DNA from: Citrifermentans bremense
Lineage (GTDB): Bacteria; Desulfobacterota; Desulfuromonadia; Geobacterales; Geobacteraceae
DNA length: 64,000 bases
Assembly (NCBI RefSeq): GCF_014218275.1
Contig: NZ_AP023213.1
Location: forward strand, 1,900,001-1,964,000
Reading direction: 5' to 3'
In this document: one piece after another, positions 25,439 through 37,433 of the stretch
Layout of the letters: every line of letters starts with the position of its first letter
How positions within the stretch are numbered: position 1 is the first letter of the stretch
Made by a program: the position numbers and the translations under genes
Notes under the pieces: generated by a model
What the model was told of the DNA's origin: nothing
Seen by the model: only the letters and a program-made list of their open reading frames with translations
Databases searched by the model: none

Positions 25439-26500
25439 ATGAGTCGACTTGTGAGATCTCTGTCATTACTGTTTGCCTTTGCAGTGCTGCTGGCAGCCCC
25501 TTCCCAGGCCATAAGTGAGGATCGTCCTGCCGCGTCCGAGGGGAAGGCCGCAGGGAGCCCGCTCCCGGCCCAGCCAGTCGGCGTGAAGCCGCGGGACGAA
25601 AAGCCGGCAGTAGACAGCGCCGCGCTCTTCGAGCAGGGGGGGGCACTCACCCCGCGCGGCCAGCTCGTGTTCGAGCCGTCCTTCCAGTACTCGCACTCCT
25701 CGACCAACCTAGTTTCCGTAGTAGGCTACACCATCATCCCTTCCATCACGGTCGGCCTCATCAATATCAAAAACGTCGAGAGCAACACCCTGGTGGGGTC
25801 GCTCGGCCTGCGCTACGGATTGACGAGCAGGCTGGAGGGGGAGGTCAAGGTCCCCTACGTCTACCGGACCGAGTCTACCTCGACCGACTCCGCCGGCACA
25901 GGCGGACAGAACGTCACCAGCGTCTTTTCAGCGGACGGCAATGATCTGGGCGACGTCGAATTCGGCCTGCGCTACCAGTTGAACCGCGTCGGCCCTAGCT
26001 ACTGGCTTCTCGGCTTGCGGGTCAAGTCCAACACAGGAAAGGACCCCTTCCAAATGCCAGTGGACCCGGTCACCGGATTTTACACCGAGCTCCCGACCGG
26101 CTCGGGGTTTTGGGGCATACAGCCAGGCCTTACCCTTATCGTCCCCTCCGACCCGGCTGTTTTCTTCGGCAGTGTGAGCTACATGTTCAACATACCCCGC
26201 AACATCTCCGGTGTCGGCGATGTCGATCCCGGCGACATCATAGACGCCAATTTCGGCCTTGGCTTCGCCCTCAACGACAAGACCTCCATCAGCCTCGGGT
26301 ATGACCACAGCATCGTCGGCCGGGTGAAGCGCGACGAAAGCTACCTCCCGGGGACCATGGTGACTCAGTTGGGGACCCTGCTCATCGGCTTTTCCTTCCG
26401 AGCGAGCGAAAGTATGAGCTACGTGTTTTCCCTGGGGGCGGGCCTCACCCAAGCCGCGCCCGACGTGCAACTTACCATAAAGGTGCCATTCACCCTCTGA
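25439..26500 (+). CDS. Outer-membrane beta-barrel, transporter-like
   Basis: About 353 residues. Signal peptide MSRLVRSLSLLFAFAVLLAA ending at SQA, then a proline-rich linker (about 25-60), then alternating amphipathic strands ending in a terminal aromatic/hydrophobic strand (LTIKVPFTL), as in outer-membrane barrels. The layout matches the phenol-degradation/transporter-type barrels and also FapF, the secretion pore of the Pseudomonas Fap amyloid system. The second of two ATGs fits AAAGGA best. It heads the surface-structure region, 90 bases before its regulator. A role in exporting the small repetitive proteins downstream is inference. Confidence 0.75.
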   Translation: MSRLVRSLSLLFAFAVLLAAPSQAISEDRPAASEGKAAGSPLPAQPVGVKPRDEKPAVDSAALFEQGGALTPRGQLVFEPSFQYSHSSTNLVSVVGYTIIPSITVGLINIKNVESNTLVGSLGLRYGLTSRLEGEVKVPYVYRTESTSTDSAGTGGQNVTSVFSADGNDLGDVEFGLRYQLNRVGPSYWLLGLRVKSNTGKDPFQMPVDPVTGFYTELPTGSGFWGIQPGLTLIVPSDPAVFFGSVSYMFNIPRNISGVGDVDPGDIIDANFGLGFALNDKTSISLGYDHSIVGRVKRDESYLPGTMVTQLGTLLIGFSFRASESMSYVFSLGAGLTQAAPDVQLTIKVPFTL

Positions 26501-26590
26501 CCGCGAAGCCGCGGCAGGCGGGCGATCCGCATACCCTGCGACAATATGCCGAGTGGCCCTGGCGCCGTAAGAGAAACAGGAGAAACCGCA

Positions 26591-28084
26591 ATGCGCATCG
26601 ACATACGCGTCAAGACCCGCCTGAGCGGACGGGCGGTCTACTTCTCGGGGAAGCGCCGCATGGAAGAGACCGTGGTTGTGAATGAACTCAGCCTGAGCAG
26701 CGCCATGGTGAGCGGACTGGGCTCTGTCGATAAAGAGACTTGCACGCTCAACATAAACCTGTCCCCCAATAGCCGTGTGGAACTACCTGCGCAGCTGCTG
26801 CGCAGCACGCACAAGAACACGGTGTTCAGGCTCTATTTCCCGGAGAAGCAGGCTCTGGACGCGATCTGGGCCTTTCTGCGGCGGCAGGCCCCGGACAACG
26901 GCAGCTGCCCTTACTGCGGCATGGCTTTGCAGTCGGACTGCTCCCTTTGCGGCACCTGCCGCAGCCCCCTTGACATCATGGACAGCGACTACCTGGAGCG
27001 CCACCTGCAGTCCACGTTCCTGACCCGCCTTGAAAGCAGACTTCCCCGGTGCGACTCCGGACTGCTGCTGCGACTTCTCAGCACGGTGGACCAGAGCATC
27101 GTTGGGGCCCCCCCCGCTCTCGTCGACGATGAATTCGTCGGCACCGCCCCGGCCCTGCGAGAGGTCTTTGCCATGATCCGTAAGGCCGCGAGCACTGACA
27201 TGAGCATCCTGGTCCTTGGGGAAAGCGGAACGGGCAAGGAACTCACCGCACAAGCGATTCACGAGAGGAGCCAGCGCCGTGACCAGCCGATGGTGGTGGT
27301 GAACTGTGCGGCCATTCCCGGGCAGCTTTTGGAAAGCGAGCTGTTCGGCTATGAGAAGGGAGCCTTCACCGGTGCCTATGCGAGAAAGGCGGGACGCTTC
27401 GAACTGGCAGACGGGGGCACCATATTCCTGGACGAGATCGGCGAACTGCCCCCCTTGCTCCAGGCCAAGCTGCTCCGCTTTCTCGAAGACCACACCGTGG
27501 AGCGGGTCGGCGGCAAGCACGGCGTGCACGTGGACGTCCGCATCATCGCAGCGACCAACTGCAACCTTGCCGCCATGGTGGAGCAGGGAACCTTTCGCCG
27601 CGACCTCTACTACCGTCTGAACACGATCAGCATTACGCTCCCCCCCTTGCGCGAGCGTGGCGGCGACATCCTCGTTCTGGCAAAGTTCTTCCTCCAGCGC
27701 TTCGGCGCCCAGGAACAGAGCGAGCTACACGGCTTCTCTCCAGCAGCCCTCGCCGCCATCAGCGCATATGACTGGCCCGGCAACGTCAGGGAGCTCATCA
27801 ACAAGGTGCGGCGGGCGCTGGTGATGGCTACCGGAAAGTTTATCGAGCCAGAGGACCTGGAACTGGCGAGGGTTGCCCCCTTCGCCCGCCATAAGCAGTC
27901 CAGCGCGCTTTCCTGCAGCCGTGAACAGATCCTCGACCTCCTCGAGCAAAACGGCTACTGCGTTACCCGTGCCGCACGCGCACTCGGGGTGAGCAGGCCT
28001 ACCTTTTACGCTTCAATGCGGCGCCACGGCATCGACCCCAGTCGCGCAAACAGCGTCCCATACCTCCCCCTGTCCGCCTCCTGA
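26591..28084 (+). CDS. Sigma-54 activator with PilZ-like domain and zinc ribbon
   Basis: 497 residues. Residues 1-95 look like a PilZ domain: overlapping RxxxR motifs at Arg2, Arg6 and Arg10, then VVNELSLSSAMVSG in the place of the usual DxSxxG. Cysteines at 106, 109, 120 and 123 (CPYC, CGTC) form a probable zinc ribbon. The AAA+ domain has Walker A GESGTGKE from 210, GAFTGA at 257-262 and DEIGE. The C-terminal helix-turn-helix (RAARALGVSRPTFYASMRRH) binds DNA. There is no receiver domain, so the input is probably a ligand, perhaps c-di-GMP. AGGAGAAACCGC precedes the ATG. The natural target is the sigma-54 promoter 190 bases downstream. Confidence 0.88.
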   Translation: MRIDIRVKTRLSGRAVYFSGKRRMEETVVVNELSLSSAMVSGLGSVDKETCTLNINLSPNSRVELPAQLLRSTHKNTVFRLYFPEKQALDAIWAFLRRQAPDNGSCPYCGMALQSDCSLCGTCRSPLDIMDSDYLERHLQSTFLTRLESRLPRCDSGLLLRLLSTVDQSIVGAPPALVDDEFVGTAPALREVFAMIRKAASTDMSILVLGESGTGKELTAQAIHERSQRRDQPMVVVNCAAIPGQLLESELFGYEKGAFTGAYARKAGRFELADGGTIFLDEIGELPPLLQAKLLRFLEDHTVERVGGKHGVHVDVRIIAATNCNLAAMVEQGTFRRDLYYRLNTISITLPPLRERGGDILVLAKFFLQRFGAQEQSELHGFSPAALAAISAYDWPGNVRELINKVRRALVMATGKFIEPEDLELARVAPFARHKQSSALSCSREQILDLLEQNGYCVTRAARALGVSRPTFYASMRRHGIDPSRANSVPYLPLSAS

Positions 28085-28085
28085 A

Positions 28086-28120
28086 GCAGCGGTTAGAGGC
28101 CCTGGCCGTCTAGCCGCTGC
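28086..28120 (+). terminator. Hairpin after activator gene
   Basis: Twelve-base arms GCAGCGGTTAGA and TCTAGCCGCTGC, with an inner GGCC pair. No T-run follows, so termination may be partial or Rho-dependent. Confidence 0.45.
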
Positions 28121-28137
28121 ACCATCTTCACAAAGTC

Positions 28138-28221
28138 TTACACCGCTTTACAGGCAAGTTGTTGAAATCCCGCGTTTTTATGAAAGATGTAAACAGGAGT
28201 AATGAGATCCTTTTTACAAAC
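28138..28221 (+). promoter_or_regulatory. Repeated TTTACA words, candidate activator sites
   Basis: CTTTACAG at 28146, TGTAAACAG at 28188 and TTTACAAACAG at 28213, plus TTACA at 28138. They lie 60-150 bases upstream of the sigma-54 promoter, the usual range for enhancer-like activator sites. Similar words precede the barrel gene. Confidence 0.4.
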
Positions 28222-28269
28222 AGAGGTCTGCTGCACGCCGTAACTTGCTGAAATTGCTAGATTGTGTTT

Positions 28270-28286
28270 TTGGCACAGAAAGTGCT
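28270..28286 (+). promoter_or_regulatory. Sigma-54 promoter of the exported-protein operon
   Basis: TTGGCAC-AGAAA-GTGCT: the -24 element is perfect, the -12 element has one mismatch, and the GG to GC distance is the required 12. The predicted start is near 28297, 35 bases before the first small exported protein. Confidence 0.8.
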
Positions 28287-28331
28287 GAGGTAGTGGGTGT
28301 GGATGCATGAACCAAAGTGGCGGAGGTAGCC

Positions 28332-28673
28332 ATGAAACGATTCACGCTTACGCTTGCCCTGCTGCTGGTGGCGGCAGCGGCCCGTGCAGAGACGAACTCG
28401 ACAGGTTCTACGGCTCCTACGGACCTGGTCGCACTCAACCTCTGTCAGGCTCCGGCCGAAGCTTTGCAGGCGCCGCCCGGAAGAACAGCGCTGGCCGCCA
28501 GGCAGCAGGGCTTCACAGCGATGGAAACCGCACCACTGAGCGCAGAGGAGTTGAATGTGGTGCACGGCCGTTACCTTCTGGGCGGGGCACCCCTGCAACC
28601 CTTTGCGCATCAAAGCGACGTGAAACTGTGGGACGAGGGAAGGGCGGTTGCACGGCCCCAGCAGTCGCACTGA
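28332..28673 (+). CDS. Small exported protein with leader-like motif
   Basis: 113 residues. A signal peptide (MKRFTLTLALLLVAAAARA) should be cleaved before Glu20. No known domain. APLSAEELNVVHGRYLLGG at 67-85 resembles the EL-x4-GG/GR leaders cut by C39 peptidases; Gly79-Arg80 would be the cut point. There is one cysteine. GGAGG lies five bases before the ATG. It is first under the sigma-54 promoter, in a region that also encodes a C39 peptidase. The function is unknown; a processed subunit or assembly factor is possible. Confidence 0.72.
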   Translation: MKRFTLTLALLLVAAAARAETNSTGSTAPTDLVALNLCQAPAEALQAPPGRTALAARQQGFTAMETAPLSAEELNVVHGRYLLGGAPLQPFAHQSDVKLWDEGRAVARPQQSH

Positions 28674-28708
28674 TTTGTCTCACGAAAGGCGCAGCAAAAA
28701 GAGTTTGA

Positions 28709-28729
28709 CGCCGGGGCCATGGCCCGGCG
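28709..28729 (+). other. Intergenic hairpin
   Basis: Seven-pair stem CGCCGGG with CCCGGCG. No T-run. It lies between the first small protein and the repeat protein and may stabilise mRNA ends or limit read-through. Confidence 0.5.
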
Positions 28730-28792
28730 GGTACTGGCACAAGGAGCAAAACCTTCATCAATGTGCAGTCAACAAATCAAAAGGAGGAAGTC

Positions 28793-29944
28793 ATGAAATC
28801 ACGTATCGTCTCCATTTTTGCCGCCGCAGCACTCGTATCGCTTTCCAGCTTCGCCTGGGCCATTGAAGCCTCTAATGACGGTGCTCTGGGTGCCGCCGTA
28901 GGCGTAGATGGCAGCACCGCCACCAGCACCACCAGCAACAGCAACTCTTTGAGCTCCACCGATAACGTCTCCGTCAGCAAGGAGAACGGCAACACCATCG
29001 CCTCGGGCAACACCTTTACCAAGTCCGAGACCGAGACCTTGAACGTGAGCAAGGAGAACGGTAACACCATCGCCTCGGGCAACACCTTTACCAAGTCCGA
29101 GACCGAGAACCTGAACGTGACCAAGGAGTCGGGGAACTCGATAGCCTCGGGCAACACCAAGACTGTGACCGTAACTCCGACCGACAACTCCACCACCAAC
29201 AAGGAGTCTTTCAACACCTTGACCAAGACCGAGACCGAGAACGTGAGCGTGACCAAGGAGTCGGGGAACTCGATCGCCTCGGGCAACAGCGCCACCAAGA
29301 CGGTGACCATCACGCCGACCGACAACTCGGTCAACACCGAGGATTCGAACAACACCTCGACCGAGAACGTGAACGTGACCAAGGAGTCGGGAAACGCGAT
29401 TGCCTCGGGAAACACGAAGACCGTTAACGTGACTAAAACTGACAATTCGAGCGAAACCGAGGATTCCTACAACACCGACAACTCGGTTGCCAACAAGGAA
29501 TCCGGCAATACCGTCGCCTCGGGCAACACCAAGAACGAGACCGAGAACGAAGATTCCTTCAACACCACCAACGTGACCAGGAGCGACAACCGCAACTTCA
29601 GCAACACCGAGAATGAGAGCAGCACCGAGACCGAATACGAGGATTCCAACAACACCATGACGGTCAACAAGTCCGAAAGCGACAGCGACAGCCATGACCT
29701 GAGCATCACGATCGGTGATGTTGCGGTTGCCGTTGCGAGCACCCAGCTCTCGGGGACCGTTTCCGCCAACTCCGTCGACCTGGCCAAGCGCGCCTACATC
29801 TCGACCGGCAACAACGACATCTCCGGCTCCGCATTCCAGGGCGCCACGGGGATCACCACCGTGACCCAGAACAGCGGCGTGAATTCCCTGATCCAGCCGT
29901 CGGTAAACGTTCAGTCTAACCTGAGCCTGAACCCGGGGCAGTAA
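28793..29944 (+). CDS. Asn/Thr/Ser-rich repetitive exported protein
   Basis: 383 residues after a clear signal peptide (ending FAWA). The mature chain has no cysteine and is dominated by N, T, S, E and K. Six copies of a core like KESGNSIASGN occur between about residues 60 and 250; the first two sit in a 24-residue (72-base) tandem unit. The rest is a degenerate EDSNNT-type region. The last 80 residues differ, with an aliphatic stretch and QNSGVNSLIQPSVNV, a motif shared with the next small protein. Strong site AAAAGGAGGAAGTC. The composition and short-period repeat suit a beta-solenoid or amyloid-like fibre subunit. I know no named family. Confidence 0.75.
   Translation: MKSRIVSIFAAAALVSLSSFAWAIEASNDGALGAAVGVDGSTATSTTSNSNSLSSTDNVSVSKENGNTIASGNTFTKSETETLNVSKENGNTIASGNTFTKSETENLNVTKESGNSIASGNTKTVTVTPTDNSTTNKESFNTLTKTETENVSVTKESGNSIASGNSATKTVTITPTDNSVNTEDSNNTSTENVNVTKESGNAIASGNTKTVNVTKTDNSSETEDSYNTDNSVANKESGNTVASGNTKNETENEDSFNTTNVTRSDNRNFSNTENESSTETEYEDSNNTMTVNKSESDSDSHDLSITIGDVAVAVASTQLSGTVSANSVDLAKRAYISTGNNDISGSAFQGATGITTVTQNSGVNSLIQPSVNVQSNLSLNPGQ
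28978..29121 (+). repeat. 72-base tandem repeat inside repeat protein gene
   Basis: Two nearly identical 72-base units encoding VSKENGNTIASGNTFTKSET plus four further residues each. Degenerate copies continue downstream at looser spacing. Confidence 0.8.
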
Positions 29945-29975
29945 CAGGGGAGCGGACCTTTCAGTCACACCGTGA

Positions 29976-29999
29976 GAGCCCCGGCGTCAGCCGGGGCTC
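29976..29999 (+). other. Hairpin after repeat protein gene
   Basis: Perfect ten-pair stem GAGCCCCGGC with GCCGGGGCTC, four-base loop GTCA, no T-run. Placed just after the likely abundant subunit gene, where such stems often protect the upstream mRNA. Confidence 0.65.
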
Positions 30000-30048
30000 G
30001 TACTGCGTACCGTTATGGGCTCACCGTAGCCCAGGAAAGGAAGCGGCC

Positions 30049-30402
30049 ATGATACGCAAGCACATCATTACCTTTGCAGCGATGCTTGGCATGGCCTTCG
30101 CCCTGCCGGTTGTTGCCTCAGAGCTTGAGCAGGCTGATTTGGGCGCCCCGCTAGCCGACGGCGCCATGGCCCAGCAGAGCGGGCGGCAAGGGGTGCAGGT
30201 CGAAGAGATGTTGAACACGATCAACAGTTCCGAGGCGAGCGCAACCGTGGCGAGCAACCTGCTCACCTCGACCGGCACCGGGACCAACGTGGTCGGTGAC
30301 AACGCCTTCGGTGCCACTAACGGCGTTGCCACCATTATCCAGAATTCGGGAAACCAGAACGTGATCCAGAGCTCCTTCATCCTCAACCTGAGCGTTCACT
30401 GA
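30049..30402 (+). CDS. Small exported protein with QNSG motif
   Basis: 117 residues with a signal peptide ending near VVAS. APLADGAMAQQSGRQ (residues 33-47) lines up with the leader-like segment of the first small protein, giving Gly45-Arg46 as a possible C39 cut. The C-terminus GVATIIQNSGNQNVIQSSF matches the end of the large repeat protein and recalls the Gln/Asn spacing of curli subunits. GAAAGGAAGCGGCC precedes the ATG. A minor subunit or nucleator is plausible but not shown. Confidence 0.72.
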   Translation: MIRKHIITFAAMLGMAFALPVVASELEQADLGAPLADGAMAQQSGRQGVQVEEMLNTINSSEASATVASNLLTSTGTGTNVVGDNAFGATNGVATIIQNSGNQNVIQSSFILNLSVH

Positions 30403-30413
30403 CGGGAGGCGCC

Positions 30414-31115
30414 ATGCAACGGCACACTATCGGGACCGTGCTATTGGTTCTCGCCATGCTCCAGTCAGCTCCCACGCCGGTCATGGCAGGAAGGGTCCTT
30501 GTGCCCGGCGCGTTCCTTGGGGGCATCAACGTTCCCGTGGCCAGCATGAAGGAGCTCCGTTTCAAGCGCACCGTGCAGCAGCAGTACGACTTCAGCTGCG
30601 GTTCGGCCGCCCTCGCCACACTGCTGACCTACCACTACGATGACCGGGTCAGCGAGGATGAAGTCTTCGTCGCCATGTTCGATCACGGCGACAAGGAGAA
30701 GATCCGCCGTGAGGGGTTTTCCCTGCTCGACATGAAAATGTACCTGGAGCGGCGCGGCTACCAGGCCGACGGCTACCGCATCGGGCTGGAAAAGCTGGAG
30801 AAGGTCGGGATACCAGCCATCGCCCTGGTCAACATCCGGGGGTACCGGCACTTCATAGTAGTGAAGGGGGTCACAAAGCAAATGGTGCTGCTGGGCGACC
30901 CCGCACAGGGAGCCCGAACGGTGCCACGCGAGGAGTTCGAGCGGTGGTGGAATGGTCTGGCTTTTTTGGTGCGCAGTAAAAAGGACATCGCGCACAGGCA
31001 CTTCAACGATCCGGGTGAGTGGCCGGCCAAGTCCGGGCGGGCTGGGATGGAGCCGCTTACCGCAGTACAGTTGCTTGATCCAACCCTTTACCTGACATCC
31101 CGAAGAGGGTTTTGA
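30414..31115 (+). CDS. Exported C39 family cysteine peptidase
   Basis: 233 residues, with a signal peptide (to about PVMA, residue 25) but no ABC transporter domains. The papain-like triad is visible: Cys62 in QQQYDFSCGSAALATLL with the oxyanion glutamine just upstream, His146 in GYRHFIVVKG and Asp162 in LLGDPAQGAR. C39 enzymes cut after Gly-Gly-type leaders. As a stand-alone exported form it resembles FapD of the Pseudomonas Fap amyloid operon. GGGAGGCGCC precedes the ATG, 11 bases after the QNSG protein. Its likely substrates are its three small neighbours. Confidence 0.88.
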   Translation: MQRHTIGTVLLVLAMLQSAPTPVMAGRVLVPGAFLGGINVPVASMKELRFKRTVQQQYDFSCGSAALATLLTYHYDDRVSEDEVFVAMFDHGDKEKIRREGFSLLDMKMYLERRGYQADGYRIGLEKLEKVGIPAIALVNIRGYRHFIVVKGVTKQMVLLGDPAQGARTVPREEFERWWNGLAFLVRSKKDIAHRHFNDPGEWPAKSGRAGMEPLTAVQLLDPTLYLTSRRGF

Positions 31116-31145
31116 GCCAACAGGATGATCAAAAGGGGTAAAGCC

Positions 31146-31634
31146 ATGAAAACCAACGGTATCCTCACTATAGCGTCCCTGGCGCTGCTGCTTCTCGCCT
31201 CGGTTGCCGGGGTGGCGCCAGCGCAAGACCAGATAACGGCGTCCCAGGTGCCTGACGCAGAGCTCGCGACAAGCCGGGGCGGCTACCTTGGCCAGGACGG
31301 ACTCCTCGTTTCCTTCGGTATCGAGCGTGCCGTCTACGTCAACGGGGTTCTGAGCGCGTCCAGCAGCTTGAATTTCTCCTCCGCTGGCGCCTTGAAAAGC
31401 GGCGCACCCGGCACCACCCTGGTGCAGATAGGGCCGGATGGGAGCAACCTCTTCCGCGCCGCGCAAGGTACGGGTGCACTGCCAGGTGGCCTGACTGTGA
31501 TACAGAACACCCTCGACAGGCAGGTCATCAGCAACCATCTGGCCATCAACGCCCAGCTCGCCAATATGTCGATTTTCCGCGACATAAGCCTTCAGTCGAC
31601 GCTGCGGCAGCAGATGATCAATGCCGTGAGGTAG
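31146..31634 (+). CDS. Exported protein with Gly-Gly leader-like motif
   Basis: 162 residues, signal peptide ending near APAQ (27). VPDAELATSRGGYLGQD places Gly45-Gly46 at the same distance from the N-terminus as the Gly-Arg of the 117-residue protein: a near-textbook double-glycine leader. The C-terminus LPGGLTVIQNTLDRQVISNH is a weaker version of the QNSG motif. AAAAGGGGTAAAGCC precedes the ATG; one 21 bases upstream is less well placed. Last gene before the large Ig-repeat protein. Confidence 0.72.
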   Translation: MKTNGILTIASLALLLLASVAGVAPAQDQITASQVPDAELATSRGGYLGQDGLLVSFGIERAVYVNGVLSASSSLNFSSAGALKSGAPGTTLVQIGPDGSNLFRAAQGTGALPGGLTVIQNTLDRQVISNHLAINAQLANMSIFRDISLQSTLRQQMINAVR

Positions 31635-31850: not shown

Positions 31851-34800
31851 ATGCACTACGGCAAGTTGCGTATGGTGGTGGAAGCGCTGACTCTGATTAT
31901 CCTGATTGCGACCTCTGTTCCGGCATGGGCCGCACTCACCATCGATCCACTTTCTTCTCCCTCCACTAACACGAACGTTGCCATTACCGGTACCTGTGCC
32001 GAGGGGGCAACCGTCACCCTTGATGTCCCTGGAGCGGTAGTCGGTCCGGTCAGTTATCCATCCCCGACTGCGTGGAGGGCAGCCGTTTCCGCCCTCGCCG
32101 ACGGCGATCATACGATTACCGCCACGAGCGACATGGACGAACCCGCTTCTGTGAGCGTCGAGTTCTACGTCGATGCGAGCGCCCCCGTCCTAACCGTCTC
32201 CACCCTGCCAAGCGGAGCCGTCACCAACGTCTCCCTCCTAAACATAGCCGGCAGCGCGACTGACGCCGCCAGCGGCCTGGCCCTGGTCACCATCAACGGG
32301 GAGGCCGTCGAGCTCCAGCCCGACGGCAGGTTCAGCGGCGTGGTAACCCTTGTCAGCGGCCCCAACGACATCGCGGTGGCCGCCACGGACAGGTTGGGCA
32401 ACAGCACGACAGACAACCGCGTCATCCGACTCGATCTGACGGCACCGCACCTTGCCATCACTTCGCCCGCTGACAATACCGTGACCTCGCAGGCCGTCGC
32501 CACCGTCACCGGCACCGTCGACGAGGAATCCGTGGTTGTCGTCGCCCTCGGTGCAGGGGGGGGGGAGGCGGCCGAGCAGAACGGTACATCGTTTTCCGCG
32601 GATCTGGCGCTCCAGCCGGGGCTCAACACGATCACGGTCACCGCAACCGATCTTGCCGGAAACAGCACTGTCGCGAAGCGGAGTGTGCTGTACGACAGCA
32701 GCATTCCAAGCCTGCAGGTGACCCAGCCGCCCCAGGACCAGGCGACCAACAACATGACGCCGGTCATCGCCGGTAGCGCCAGCGATCCCGACAGCGCCGT
32801 TCAGGTCACCATCGCCGCAGGGGGGCAAACCCATTCGCCCCCGCTGGAGGGCGGCTCCTTCAGCCAGCAGCTTTCTCTTGGCGGCGACGGTTCCTACCCC
32901 GTGACGGTCACCTGCCAGGACGAGGCAGGAAACCAGGCAACGGTGGTACGGACCCTGCTCCTCGACACGACATCCCCGGCAATCACGATGGTCACGACGA
33001 CGGCGGCCCAGGGGCGCTATGGCGAAGGAGCTCAGCTCCCCTTGACCCTATCCTTCAGCGAGCCCGTGTCCGGCGAAGGTTTGACGCTGGTCCTCTCCAG
33101 CGGCGGCAGTGCCCGTTGCGGCGCCCTGGCCGGGGTCGCGAGTTGCACCGCGGTGTACACCGTAGCCTTCGGGGAAAACAGTGAAAAGCTTGAGGTGACC
33201 CAGGTAAGCGGCACGATTTCCGACAGTGCCGGCAACGGGGCGGTCGATCCTGCGGTCAGCGCGGCAGCGAACCTGGGCGCCGCGAAGATCCTGGTCATCG
33301 ACACGGGAGCACCGACTGCCACCATCGCTTCGCATCCAGCCGATCCGACCTCCCAGCAAAGCGCCACCTTCTCCTTTACCAGCGACGAGGCAGGCTCCGG
33401 TTTTGAATGCAGCCTGGACGCCGGTCAGTACGCCACCTGCAGCACACCGGTGGTCCTGGACCTCACGGGAAGGCCGAATGGCCGGCATACCTTTGCCGTA
33501 CGGGCTGTCGACCTTACCGGCAACGTCGGTGCGCCGGCCAGCTGGAGTTGGACCATCGATACCATTCCCCCCGCGGTAACGGTTGCCCCCGCACAAAACC
33601 GCTCGGGGAGCTACCTGCAGACCGCCACCGCCACCGATGCCTCGGCGGTCAGCGTGCAGTGGAGCATGGTGGAAGGAAGCGGGCAGATCACGTTCAGCGC
33701 TCCTTCCTCCTTGCAGACGGACGTCACAGCTTCTGCAGACGGCGGCTACGTGCTGCGTCTGACCGCAACAGACGCTGCAGGCAACAGTGCCTCCGCCAGC
33801 ACCTCCCTTGTCTGGGACTCGACGCTTCCAACGGTGAGCGCCGGGGCGGGACGCACGGCAGGGAGCGCCTTCACCCAGACCGGGAGCGTGTCCGATGCCA
33901 CGGCAACGACCCTTTCCTGGAGCAAGGCGAGCGGACCTGGGACGGTCAGCTTCGGCTCCCCGGCGAGCGCGGGGACGACCGTGTCGATGGATAAGGACGG
34001 CAGCTACGTGCTCCGCCTGACGGCAACCGACGCGGCCGGGAACAGCGCGTCTTCAGATGCCACGGTGGTCTGGGATACGACGCTTCCAACGGTGAGCGCC
34101 GGGGTGGGACGCACGGCGGGGAGCGCCTTCACCCAGACCGGGAGCGTTACCGATGCCACGGCAACGACGCTTTCCTGGAGCAAGGTGAGCGGACCCGGGA
34201 CGGTCAGCTTCGGTTCCCAGGCGAGCGCGGGGACGACCGTGTCGATGGATAAGGACGGCAGCTACTTGCTTCGCCTGACGGCAACCGACGCGGCGGGGAA
34301 CAGCGCCTCTGCGGACGTTACCTTGATCTGGGACACAACGCTCCCGACTGTAAACGCTGGGGCGACCCGTACTGCCAACCGCGCCTTCACTCAGACTGGG
34401 AGCGTGTCCGACGCCACCGCCACCACCTTTTCCTGGAGCAAGACGAGCGGGCCTGGCACCGTTACCTTTGGCTCCTCTGCCAGCGCCAGCACTACGGTAT
34501 CGATGGATCAGGACGGCAGCTACGTGCTGAGGCTGACCGCAATGGATGGAAGCGGCAACACGGCCTACGGTGAAGTCGTCATCGTCTGGGACACGACGCT
34601 TCCAACGGTGAGCGCCGGGGCGGGACGCACGGCAGGGAGCGCCTTCACCCAGACCGGGAGCGCGTCCGATGCCACGGCGACGACCCTTTCCTGGAGCAAG
34701 GCGAGCGGACCCGGGACGGTCAGCTTCGGCTCCCCGGCGAGCGCGGGGACGACCGTGTCGATGGATAAGGACGGCAGCTACGTGCTCCGCCTGACGGCAA

Positions 34801-37433
34801 CTGACGCGGCCGGGAACAGCGCGTCTTCAGATGCCACGGTGGTCTGGGACACCACCCCCCCGTCTGTGACTGCGGGTACAAGCCGTACTGCAAACACCAC
34901 TTTCACCCAGACCGGGAGCGTTACCGATGCCACGACAACAACGCTTTCCTGGAGCACGGTGAGCGGACCCGGGACGGTCAGCTTCGGTTCCCCGGCGAGC
35001 GTAGGGACGACCGTGTCGATGGATAAGGACGGCAGCTACGTGCTTCGCCTGACGGCAACTGACGCGGCGGGGAACAGCGCCTCTGCGGACGTTACCTTGA
35101 TCTGGGACACAACGCTCCCGACTGTAAACGCTGGGGCGACCCGTACTGCCAACCGCGCCTTCACTCAGACTGGGAGCGTGTCCGACGCCACCGCCACCAC
35201 CTTTTCCTGGAGCAAGACGAGCGGGCCTGGCACCGTTACCTTTGGCTCCTCTGCCAGCGCCAGCACTACGGTATCGATGGATCAGGACGGCAGCTACGTG
35301 CTGAGGCTGACCGCAATGGATGGAAGCGGCAACACGGCCTACGGTGAAGTCGTCATCGTCTGGGACACGACGCTTCCAACGGTGAGCGCCGGGGTGGGAC
35401 GCACGGCGGGGAGCGCCTTCACCCAGACCGGGAGCGTGTCCGATGCCACGGCGACGACCCTTTCCTGGAGCAAGGTTAGCGGACCCGGGACGGTCAGCTT
35501 CGGCTCCCCGGCGAGCGCGGGGACGACCGTTTCGATGGATAAGAACGGCAGCTACGTGCTCCGCCTGACCGCGGTTGATGCGGCCGGCAACAGCAGTACC
35601 AGTGACGTCGCCGTAGTCTGGGATACCACGGCGCCTACCCTGATTCAGCCACCGCCGGTCAGTACCGCCGCCTCGGTTAACCTGACGGTACAGGCAAGCG
35701 ATGCCACTTCGCTCACCTACCAGTGGCAGCAGCTCTCCGGTCCGGGGACGGTGACCCTGGGGCAGCCAGTGAGCCCCACCACGAGCGCCAGCGCAGACCT
35801 GGACGGCGTGTACCTTCTGCGGTTCACCGCGACCGATGCCGCCGGCAACGGCAGCGCCACTGAGGCCTCCTTGACCTGGGACACCACGGCGCCCCAGGTG
35901 GCTGCAGGCGGCAGCCGGGTGGTCAACGCACCCTTCACACCCGCCGCTACTGCCAGCGATGCCACTCCTCTCAAATACGCTTGGGAGCAACTTTCAGGGC
36001 CGGGGAACATCGCCTTCTCCGATGCAACCGCCCTGGTGCCGCAGATATCTGCCACCGCCGACGGAAGCTACTCGCTTCGCATCACTGCCACCGATGCAGC
36101 GGGCAACAGCTCCAGCGACACCCTGGCGCTCTTGTGGACCACGCAGCTTCCGCTGGTAAGCGCAGGACCTGACAGCGCCCACAATGTCAGTTTTACCCAG
36201 TATGGCTTCGCGAGCGGCACCACGCAGCTCACCTTCAAGTGGAGCCAGGCGAGCGGACCGGGCACGGTGTCCTTCGGTTCTCCGGACGCTCTCGCCACCA
36301 CGGTGAGCGCCGACCAGCAGGGGACCTATCTGCTCAGGCTTACCAGCACCGACCAGGCCGGCAACGTTTCAAGCAGCGACGCCAGCCTGATCTGGGATCT
36401 AGACCCCCCGGCGCTCTCCGTAGATCTCCCCCCCGATCACAGTTACACGAGCATCCAGCAGCTCGCGTTGTCCGGCAAGGTCGTCGACAGCCTCAGCGGA
36501 ATTCAGTCCCTGCAGTTAAACGGCGCCAGTTTAGCCCTTGACACAAATGGGAACTTCAGCCAGACCGTCCAGCTTTCCACCGGCACCAACGTGATAACGG
36601 TGGTAGCCATCGACCAGGCCGGCAACGCCACCCATTCGACCAGCAGTGTCATCCTCGATCAGGCGGTGCCGGTAATCTCGCTCACCGCCCCGGCTACGAA
36701 CGAGTTCAAAACCAACAAGTCGCAACTCATGATTATTGGGAGCGTCGACCACGACTGCGTCCTCACCATCCACGTTAGCGGCCCTGCAGGAGCACGCGAT
36801 TTCACCGCTTCACCGCTCGCCGGCACCCTGTTCAGCCAGCTTGTGGACAACCTCGCAGTCGGGGTAACTACGATCAGGCTTACGGCCACCACGCAGGCAA
36901 ATCTCTCGTCGACCCGCGTCATCACAGTTACTTACCAGACGGAGTCACCCACCCTGACCCTGACCTCACCGCAGGGCGATGTGCGACCGGGGCAGAACAC
37001 GCTTGTGGTGGCAGGCACGGCAACGGACAAGATGACTGCGGTTAAGGTCACCATTTCCGTCAATGGGCAGTTCTATACACCGGCGGTCGTTGACGGCGCG
37101 TTCAGCCAGTCTGTCCCTCTCACGGTCAAAGGGCTCTACCCCGTGACCGTGACCGCAACCAACGAGGCAGGTGGTGCCACGGTCGCCACCAGGAGGGTCA
37201 TCTACGCCACACCGACGGGAGACCTGAACGCCGACGGAAAAACCGACATAAGCGACGCCCTGCTGGCCTTGCAGGTTTCGGTCGGCATGCGCCCGCAGCT
37301 GGACGGGTTCCTGGTCTCGGGGGACATGGCACCCCTGGTGGACGACGTTCCTGCCCCCGACTGGATCATAGACATCGGGGATGCGGTGCTGATCCTGCGA
37401 GTCATCGTCGGATCACTGGAACAACCGACCTAG
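31851..37433 (+). CDS. Giant Ig/PKD-repeat surface protein with dockerin-like tail
   Basis: 1860 residues. Signal peptide to about VPAWA (27), then bacterial Ig-like domains (to about 570), then about eleven Ig/PKD-like units of about 86 residues with the core SGPGTVSFGSPASAGTTVSM and LRLTATDAAGNS. Seven of these (residues 656-1257) are nearly identical. More Ig-like domains follow, and the last 75 residues hold GDLNADGKTDISDALLALQV, a canonical dockerin/EF-hand calcium loop, with a second degenerate loop ending IIDIGDAVLILRVIVG. No sortase, PEP-CTERM or autotransporter signal is seen. AGGAGGGATGAAATT precedes the ATG. An adhesin or matrix protein held by its dockerin is the likely role; the lipoprotein next door may be its partner. 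Confidence 0.85.
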   Translation: MHYGKLRMVVEALTLIILIATSVPAWAALTIDPLSSPSTNTNVAITGTCAEGATVTLDVPGAVVGPVSYPSPTAWRAAVSALADGDHTITATSDMDEPASVSVEFYVDASAPVLTVSTLPSGAVTNVSLLNIAGSATDAASGLALVTINGEAVELQPDGRFSGVVTLVSGPNDIAVAATDRLGNSTTDNRVIRLDLTAPHLAITSPADNTVTSQAVATVTGTVDEESVVVVALGAGGGEAAEQNGTSFSADLALQPGLNTITVTATDLAGNSTVAKRSVLYDSSIPSLQVTQPPQDQATNNMTPVIAGSASDPDSAVQVTIAAGGQTHSPPLEGGSFSQQLSLGGDGSYPVTVTCQDEAGNQATVVRTLLLDTTSPAITMVTTTAAQGRYGEGAQLPLTLSFSEPVSGEGLTLVLSSGGSARCGALAGVASCTAVYTVAFGENSEKLEVTQVSGTISDSAGNGAVDPAVSAAANLGAAKILVIDTGAPTATIASHPADPTSQQSATFSFTSDEAGSGFECSLDAGQYATCSTPVVLDLTGRPNGRHTFAVRAVDLTGNVGAPASWSWTIDTIPPAVTVAPAQNRSGSYLQTATATDASAVSVQWSMVEGSGQITFSAPSSLQTDVTASADGGYVLRLTATDAAGNSASASTSLVWDSTLPTVSAGAGRTAGSAFTQTGSVSDATATTLSWSKASGPGTVSFGSPASAGTTVSMDKDGSYVLRLTATDAAGNSASSDATVVWDTTLPTVSAGVGRTAGSAFTQTGSVTDATATTLSWSKVSGPGTVSFGSQASAGTTVSMDKDGSYLLRLTATDAAGNSASADVTLIWDTTLPTVNAGATRTANRAFTQTGSVSDATATTFSWSKTSGPGTVTFGSSASASTTVSMDQDGSYVLRLTAMDGSGNTAYGEVVIVWDTTLPTVSAGAGRTAGSAFTQTGSASDATATTLSWSKASGPGTVSFGSPASAGTTVSMDKDGSYVLRLTATDAAGNSASSDATVVWDTTPPSVTAGTSRTANTTFTQTGSVTDATTTTLSWSTVSGPGTVSFGSPASVGTTVSMDKDGSYVLRLTATDAAGNSASADVTLIWDTTLPTVNAGATRTANRAFTQTGSVSDATATTFSWSKTSGPGTVTFGSSASASTTVSMDQDGSYVLRLTAMDGSGNTAYGEVVIVWDTTLPTVSAGVGRTAGSAFTQTGSVSDATATTLSWSKVSGPGTVSFGSPASAGTTVSMDKNGSYVLRLTAVDAAGNSSTSDVAVVWDTTAPTLIQPPPVSTAASVNLTVQASDATSLTYQWQQLSGPGTVTLGQPVSPTTSASADLDGVYLLRFTATDAAGNGSATEASLTWDTTAPQVAAGGSRVVNAPFTPAATASDATPLKYAWEQLSGPGNIAFSDATALVPQISATADGSYSLRITATDAAGNSSSDTLALLWTTQLPLVSAGPDSAHNVSFTQYGFASGTTQLTFKWSQASGPGTVSFGSPDALATTVSADQQGTYLLRLTSTDQAGNVSSSDASLIWDLDPPALSVDLPPDHSYTSIQQLALSGKVVDSLSGIQSLQLNGASLALDTNGNFSQTVQLSTGTNVITVVAIDQAGNATHSTSSVILDQAVPVISLTAPATNEFKTNKSQLMIIGSVDHDCVLTIHVSGPAGARDFTASPLAGTLFSQLVDNLAVGVTTIRLTATTQANLSSTRVITVTYQTESPTLTLTSPQGDVRPGQNTLVVAGTATDKMTAVKVTISVNGQFYTPAVVDGAFSQSVPLTVKGLYPVTVTATNEAGGATVATRRVIYATPTGDLNADGKTDISDALLALQVSVGMRPQLDGFLVSGDMAPLVDDVPAPDWIIDIGDAVLILRVIVGSLEQPT
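33816..35621 (+). repeat. Seven 258-base tandem repeats, organised as 774-base blocks
   Basis: Units begin at 33816, 34074, 34332, 34590, 34848, 35106 and 35364. Units 1-3 resemble units 4-6 in order, and unit 7 resembles unit 1, so a three-unit block of 774 bases was duplicated. Units 3 and 6 look almost identical. Exact DNA identity favours recombination and length change. Confidence 0.92.

Follow-up and report, generated by a model that had tools for sequence, protein, structure and literature searches.

Which proteins would a stand-alone, exported peptidase of family C39 act upon, and by what sequence code would it recognize them? This question is raised by a 64,000-nucleotide stretch of the Citrifermentans bremense genome (contig NZ_AP023213.1, positions 1,900,001 to 1,964,000; the whole of it is referred to here as the window), where the gene for such a peptidase is part of a cluster resembling the functional amyloid (Fap) operons of Pseudomonas. 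An earlier note on this DNA, in which the likeness to Fap went unremarked, had claimed that three small exported proteins of the cluster carry leader-like segments ending in Gly-Gly or Gly-Arg, and had proposed that these are processed in the periplasm after export by the Sec pathway. The segments are confirmed by the present work, which also supports a reading of the motif-bearing proteins as partners of a periplasmic C39 peptidase. Taking the different lines of evidence together, we consider it probable that in this Fap-like operon a periplasmic FapD-like C39 peptidase reads a leader located behind the Sec signal in the FapE-like protein and in the proteins of 117 and 113 amino acids (aa), and cuts after the terminal pair.

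Leader Motifs in Three Exported Proteins of the Cluster

The three open reading frames (ORFs) in question are present in the window, and the segments that they contain are SAEELNVVHGR (up to residue 80 of the 113-aa protein), ADGAMAQQSGR (up to residue 46 of the 117-aa protein) and DAELATSRGG (up to residue 46 of the FapE-like protein). With a position matrix built only from Pseudomonadota, i.e., from outside the phylum of this species, these were the top three exported ORFs of the window. Their scores were 21.4 (FapE-like), 17.8 (117-aa) and 8.9 bits (113-aa), the next best of the 20 exported-looking ORFs reaching 2.6 bits, and in residue shuffles (n = 20,000) these scores were attained 0, 0, and 161 times, respectively. 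The residues at -12/-7/-4 are, in the same order, V/L/S, L/M/Q, and L/L/V. The pair at -2/-1 is GG in the FapE-like protein and GR in the other two, the latter being outside the classical Gly-Gly, Gly-Ala, and Gly-Ser endings. In the AlphaFold2 model of the FapE-like protein, a helix formed by residues 37–44 (moderate confidence) ends at the GG. The equal distance of 46 residues in two of the proteins, which the earlier note had pointed out, proved to be a coincidence; in relatives, the pair is found between residues 37 and 192.

The FapF-like barrel, the repeat protein, and the peptidase itself were ruled out as further carriers of the motif, since none of them has a site (the barrel and the repeat protein scored 1.1 and 1.2 bits in one scoring, and -1.8 and -0.9 bits by the Pseudomonadota-only matrix). 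The NCBIfam leader families, searched at E-values up to 10, gave weak matches only (BlpC, 0.095; lactococcin-972, 0.05), and a looser DNA pattern of the motif had eight matches in the own genome, one of which is the FapE-like site. In the ORF list of the window, the cluster (25439–31634) is a single operon-like array of seven genes on the plus strand, with the following features:

25439–26500, plus strand: FapF-like outer-membrane beta-barrel protein, 353 aa (NCBIfam FapF NF058560, E = 1.3e-45, 156 bits)
26546–28084, plus strand: sigma-54-dependent activator with AAA+ and Fis-type helix-turn-helix (HTH) domains (Pfam PF00158, E = 1.1e-71; HTH_8)
28271–28286, plus strand: sigma-54-like -24/-12 site TGGCAC-N5-GTGCT, upstream of the 113-aa gene, with one consensus mismatch
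28332–28673, plus strand: 113-aa exported protein of an unnamed "LWDE" family, with leader motif, Gly-Arg and then KLWDE
28539–28571, plus strand: leader motif SAEELNVVHGR, residues 70–80 of the 113-aa protein, Leu at -12
28793–29944, plus strand: 383-aa exported repeat protein, FapC-like by position and repeats
30049–30402, plus strand: 117-aa exported protein, FapB-like by position, with C-terminal IQNSGNQNVIQS
30154–30186, plus strand: leader motif ADGAMAQQSGR, residues 36–46 of the 117-aa protein, Leu at -12
30414–31115, plus strand: FapD-like stand-alone exported C39 cysteine peptidase, 233 aa, with Q56, C62, H146, and D162 (Pfam PF03412, E = 3.5e-23)
31146–31634, plus strand: FapE-like exported protein, 162 aa counting from the start with the better ribosome site
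31251–31283, plus strand: leader motif PDAELATSRGG, residues 36–46 of the FapE-like protein, Val at -12, predicted cut Gly46/Tyr47

Biochemical work on C39 peptidases of the ATP-binding cassette (ABC) type has defined a substrate code consisting of Leu(-12)-X3-Glu(-8)-Leu(-7), a hydrophobic residue at -4 and a double Gly, which is bound as a helix (PMC6363468; PMC10885120), and the classical substrates finish in Gly-Gly, Gly-Ala, or Gly-Ser (PMC6363468). The sites described here read as a classical C39 leader, the spacing of which is equal to that of the published code. In three sets of sites, Leu or Met is present at -7 in 98–100% and Gly at -2 in 74–97% of the sites. A large hydrophobic residue occupies -12 in 59 of 70, 55 of 63, and 64 of 74 sites (84–87% versus a background of 28–37%, p from 1e-16 to 1e-22), this position having been left out of the search matrix by which the sites were found. 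Glu at -8 is seen in about a quarter to half of the sites, and a hydrophobic residue at -4 in 37–76% of them.

The C39 Peptidase and the Affinity of the Cluster

The C39 domain of the peptidase is well over the Pfam cut-off (82 bits vs. 22), and its catalytic residues Gln56, Cys62, His146, and Asp162 are shared without exception by all 113 relatives. The core of its AlphaFold2 model has a predicted local distance difference test (pLDDT) score >90, and the best solved matches are the peptidase domains of PCAT1, ComA, and LahT (Z 17–18), of which that from LahT has been solved together with a leader. The genome has a single C39 match, the gene for this stand-alone peptidase, which is 233 aa long and carries a Sec signal of its own; no C39 domain of the ABC type was found in the whole genome, the operon is free of ABC genes, and on these grounds a classical exporter of bacteriocins or of ribosomally synthesized and post-translationally modified peptides (RiPPs) was ruled out. 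The stand-alone peptidase belongs to family C39 and is not part of an ABC exporter. Signal peptides were called throughout by a simple hydrophobic-core rule and not by SignalP.

Judged by its sequences, the cluster is a remote, Fap-like relative of the canonical systems rather than one of them, because all three of its NCBIfam matches fall under the equivalog cut-offs: the FapF-like barrel has 156 bits against a cut-off of 700, the peptidase (FapD NF058616, E = 2.7e-48) has 164.2 against 330 and is a homologue rather than an equivalog, and the FapE-like protein (FapE NF058559, E = 9e-4) has 18.5 against 250. In a profile-profile comparison with Pseudomonas FapE, the FapE-like protein aligned over the N-terminal 50 columns with an E-value of 4e-8, the motif columns being aligned with each other. 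The repeat protein and the 117-aa protein have no NCBIfam FapB or FapC match, and their analogy to FapC and FapB would be one of position only. The repeat protein matched no family at a meaningful E-value in Pfam or NCBIfam, and no match to either database was found for the 113-aa protein.

The likeness to Fap (FapABCDEF) lies in the FapF-, FapD-, and FapE-like genes, in an exported subunit rich in repeats that is accompanied by small exported proteins, in the Sec signals of all these products, and in the leader motif that FapE bears in Pseudomonas as well as in the window. The window differs in that an LWDE protein (113 aa) takes the place of FapA, the cluster includes a sigma-54 activator, and FapE has a GG pair instead of GK/GR; the FapB and FapC models are silent on it. 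In the putative Fil pilus system of Acinetobacter, likewise, an exported C39 protein (FilB) is found beside a motif-bearing exported protein (FilA, DUF6160) and a barrel protein, but the pair there is GQ, and the window proteins fall under the cut-offs for FilB (NF050078, 103.7 of 475 bits) and FilC (NF050079, 33.3 of 630 bits). The fold, the active-site residues and the leader code (positions -12, -8, -7, -4, and -2) are common to the system and to the C39 domains of ABC exporters (PCAT1, LahT, ComA). The system, however, has no ABC transporter, its enzyme and putative substrates are first exported by Sec, and Arg, Lys, or Gln can stand at -1.

Some further features of the locus were noted. 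The sigma-54-like site upstream of the 113-aa gene is not above chance within the window alone, yet the orthologous loci L021 and L022 have it at the corresponding position, and it fits with the sigma-54 activator encoded just before. A C-terminal module, G[IVL]xx[IV][IV]QN[ST]xxxxxIQ, is common to the repeat protein (29800–29941), the 117-aa protein (30310–30399) and the FapE-like protein (31480–31560), and is possibly an amyloid or secretion element. Behind the operon lies the gene for a giant exported protein with Ig/PKD repeats (window positions 31851–37433), whose C-terminus, DLNADGKTDISDALLALQ, is dockerin-like and which is also found at L021, L022, L025, L026, and L029.

Distribution of the Motif in Other Genomes

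The peptidase is present in 11 of the 48 Geobacteraceae genomes, with the gene order (repeat protein, small protein, peptidase, FapE-like protein) retained. FapE-like genes were found in all 11 of these and in none of the 37 genomes lacking the peptidase (Fisher p = 4e-11). Conservation in orthologues, which the earlier note had named as a test, is observed in this family and beyond it: the FapE-like orthologues have L-x3-[RST]GG or RGG[YF], preceded in most by an acidic pair, the small protein always has GR and never GG in this family, and the 113-aa type shows EEL-x3-x-GR. The motif search beside exported C39 genes that it had suggested likewise recovered the motif in Desulfobacterota, Pseudomonadota and other groups. 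In Desulfobacterota, exported C39 genes of FapD or FilB affinity mostly adjoin exported proteins with a motif ending in GG, GR, GQ, or AG, and further carriers of the motif are FilA of Acinetobacter (GQ), a protein from a Deinococcus plasmid (GE) and one from Cupriavidus (GG).

When a matrix trained on Desulfobacterota was applied to 77 Pseudomonadota loci, it matched 86 of 207 exported ORFs near C39 genes, 4 of 86 far from them and 1.1% of shuffles, and the best of the four far matches (L135) resembles a second FapE. Because the motif had largely served to pick the 34 FapE relatives in the alignment with the window protein, which makes them circular as evidence for its conservation, a set of 74 exported genes located downstream of the peptidase, chosen without any motif filter, was used in their place. 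The R, G, and G columns are retained in 72, 70, and 70 of these loci, making this the top conserved block save for the start Met. The NCBIfam FapE model gave no match in close relatives or in Marinobacter, and matched only genomes with canonical or near-canonical Fap.

The DUF6160 (FilA-type) proteins extend these observations to genes remote from the peptidase. Among 297 Desulfobacterota genomes, an exported C39 match was found in 13 of the 16 with DUF6160 and in 15 of the 281 without it (p = 1e-12); for the three DUF6160 genomes without a peptidase match, incomplete assemblies or query sensitivity may account. Of the DUF6160 genes examined that lie off the peptidase contig (L196–L213), 17 of 18 encode a signal peptide followed by SDxxLSxVTGQ or a close variant. 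Because DUF6160 proteins encoded on contigs other than that of the peptidase keep the leader motif, their sequences suggest that one peptidase may serve many substrates in trans.

The LWDE family, to which the 113-aa protein belongs, shows the motif and pair followed, after 15–19 (once 24) residues, by [VIK]-LWDE. A second member likewise has no NCBIfam match, and members are found in the window (28332–28673) and at L021, L022, L025, L027, L062, L063, L064, L068, L070, L076, L147, L153, L157, and L183. At L027 (genome G032), the FapE-like gene is in two pieces due to a frameshift in the assembly. A second C39 copy in genome G047 (L031) lies in a divergent locus, where the partner leaders finish in Ala-Gly (LSDEEMDLVTAG, LTDQLLDAITAG). 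C39 genes, several of them annotated as stand-alone, were also seen on small plasmids of Acinetobacter, Avibacterium (beside an HmcD annotation) and Campylobacter, and in gonococcal records (H45, H53, H59, H12).

The Motif in Pseudomonas FapE

A periplasmic C39 enzyme of this type is already known. FapD of Pseudomonas is a Sec-exported, active periplasmic C39 peptidase; FapD provided with an OmpA signal restores secretion, and the Cys38Ala change abolishes secretion of FapC (Rouse, 2017; PMC5557850). The target of FapD was left unclear in that study, whose authors considered the Fap proteins to be without canonical C39 sequences, and its substrate was still described as undetermined in a 2018 review (PMC6173800). 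None of the later papers checked names a FapD substrate, nor did we find the leader code in Sec-exported partners, including Pseudomonas FapE, described in the literature searched, which left out preprints and most subscription journals.

In the three genomes where FapE exceeds the curated cut-off, its sequence reads ELKDQELA[QT]LRG[K/R]YVMPGR, and RGK falls in the same columns as the RGG of the window protein (profile E = 4e-8). A search for GG misses FapE of Pseudomonas because the motif there ends in GK or GR. FapE was also the sole Fap protein whose N-terminus was fully missing in tryptic mass spectrometry (PMC5557850). As trypsin likewise cuts after Lys and Arg, a FapD cut at this place would mimic trypsin, and the published tryptic data could hardly have revealed it.

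Proposed Mechanism and Alternative Explanations

Under the reading favored here, the FapD-like peptidase and its partners would cross the inner membrane by Sec, as has been shown for Fap. In the periplasm, the peptidase very likely recognizes the leader helix that lies downstream of the Sec signal and has hydrophobic residues at -12 and -4, Glu at -8, Leu at -7, and Gly at -2. It would then cut after the pair and so take off a second leader; this step would precede the passage of the subunits through the FapF-like pore, or be required for it, an effect that would be carried over from the genetics of Pseudomonas (PMC5557850). A cut after GG in the FapE-like protein is likely. Cleavage of the two small proteins (113 and 117 aa) behind their GR pair is putative; it is favored because homologues swap GG and GR, and is weighed against by the classical need for a small residue at -1. 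Regarding the claim of periplasmic processing after Sec export, the periplasmic location holds, having already been shown for Pseudomonas FapD (PMC5557850), and the cleavage itself, above all after Gly-Arg, we infer; the exact cut site, the binding of the leader and the cutting of both GG and GR/GK/GQ sites are predicted in the same manner.

Several observations weigh against this reading. Arg, Lys, and Gln are unusual at -1, where classical C39 enzymes want Gly, Ala, or Ser. The -4 residue is hydrophobic in just 37% of the small upstream proteins, and the residues in the window are S, Q, and V. The FapE peptides of Pseudomonas are missing over approximately the first 70 residues, beyond the predicted cut near residue 40 (PMC5557850). 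Further, Pseudomonas FapA has a motif-like ELSDSDFAGVTSG, yet it was read as unprocessed (Rouse, 2017; PMC5557850), and therefore the motif need not mean a cut.

One may alternatively suppose that only the GG proteins (FapE-like) are cut, those with GR, GK, or GQ being uncut docking partners or slow pseudo-substrates that tune or hold the peptidase via its leader groove. This would agree with the apparently unprocessed FapA and with the endings of the classical C39 substrates (PMC6363468), and also with the fact that the last residue tracks the protein type (GG in 68 of 70 FapE-like sites, GR in 37 of 63 small upstream proteins). We nevertheless regard it as unlikely, since GG and GR look interchangeable: at one site, homologues of the small upstream proteins have GG in Burkholderiales and GR elsewhere, and the FapE pair is GG in most taxa and GK/GR in Pseudomonas. 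In addition, the DUF6160 proteins, nearly all of which end in GQ and which occur in many copies per genome, fit substrates better than inhibitors. The motif could also act in docking or gating at the secretion pore, or in assembly, with the peptidase working elsewhere, e.g., on the FapF linker; FapF of Pseudomonas has GG/GA ahead of its plug, where peptides were missing (PMC5557850). However, the FapF-like protein of the window is without the leader pattern, and the motif tracks the substrate code of C39 enzymes through its successive positions, -12 among them; it does so in Fil-type systems, too, and in proteins whose genes lie at a distance from that of the peptidase. This makes the explanation rather improbable. 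Lastly, short motifs are common, and the 113-aa site by itself has a p of only ~0.008 by the out-of-phylum matrix, but a chance likeness arising from an acidic, Gly-rich linker after the signal peptide is rejected as extremely improbable by the contrast between near, far, and shuffled sequences, the invariance over phyla and the co-occurrence described above.

Significance

Beyond this operon, the chances appear about even that the proposed processing by the FapD-like peptidase is one case of a general two-step export in Gram-negative bacteria, in which Sec export would be followed by cutting of a bacteriocin-type leader, the last residue of which is free to be Gly, Arg, Lys, or Gln, by a periplasmic C39 peptidase of the FapD/FilB type, one such enzyme serving many substrates in trans, including the DUF6160 proteins. 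FapD is needed for secretion of the Fap amyloid, and the sites named here are candidate FapD substrates, which makes the question of its substrate directly testable. If the proposal is true, the Fap and Fil surface-fibre systems would share one maturation rule, and the leader would provide a sequence tag for spotting new secreted matrix proteins.

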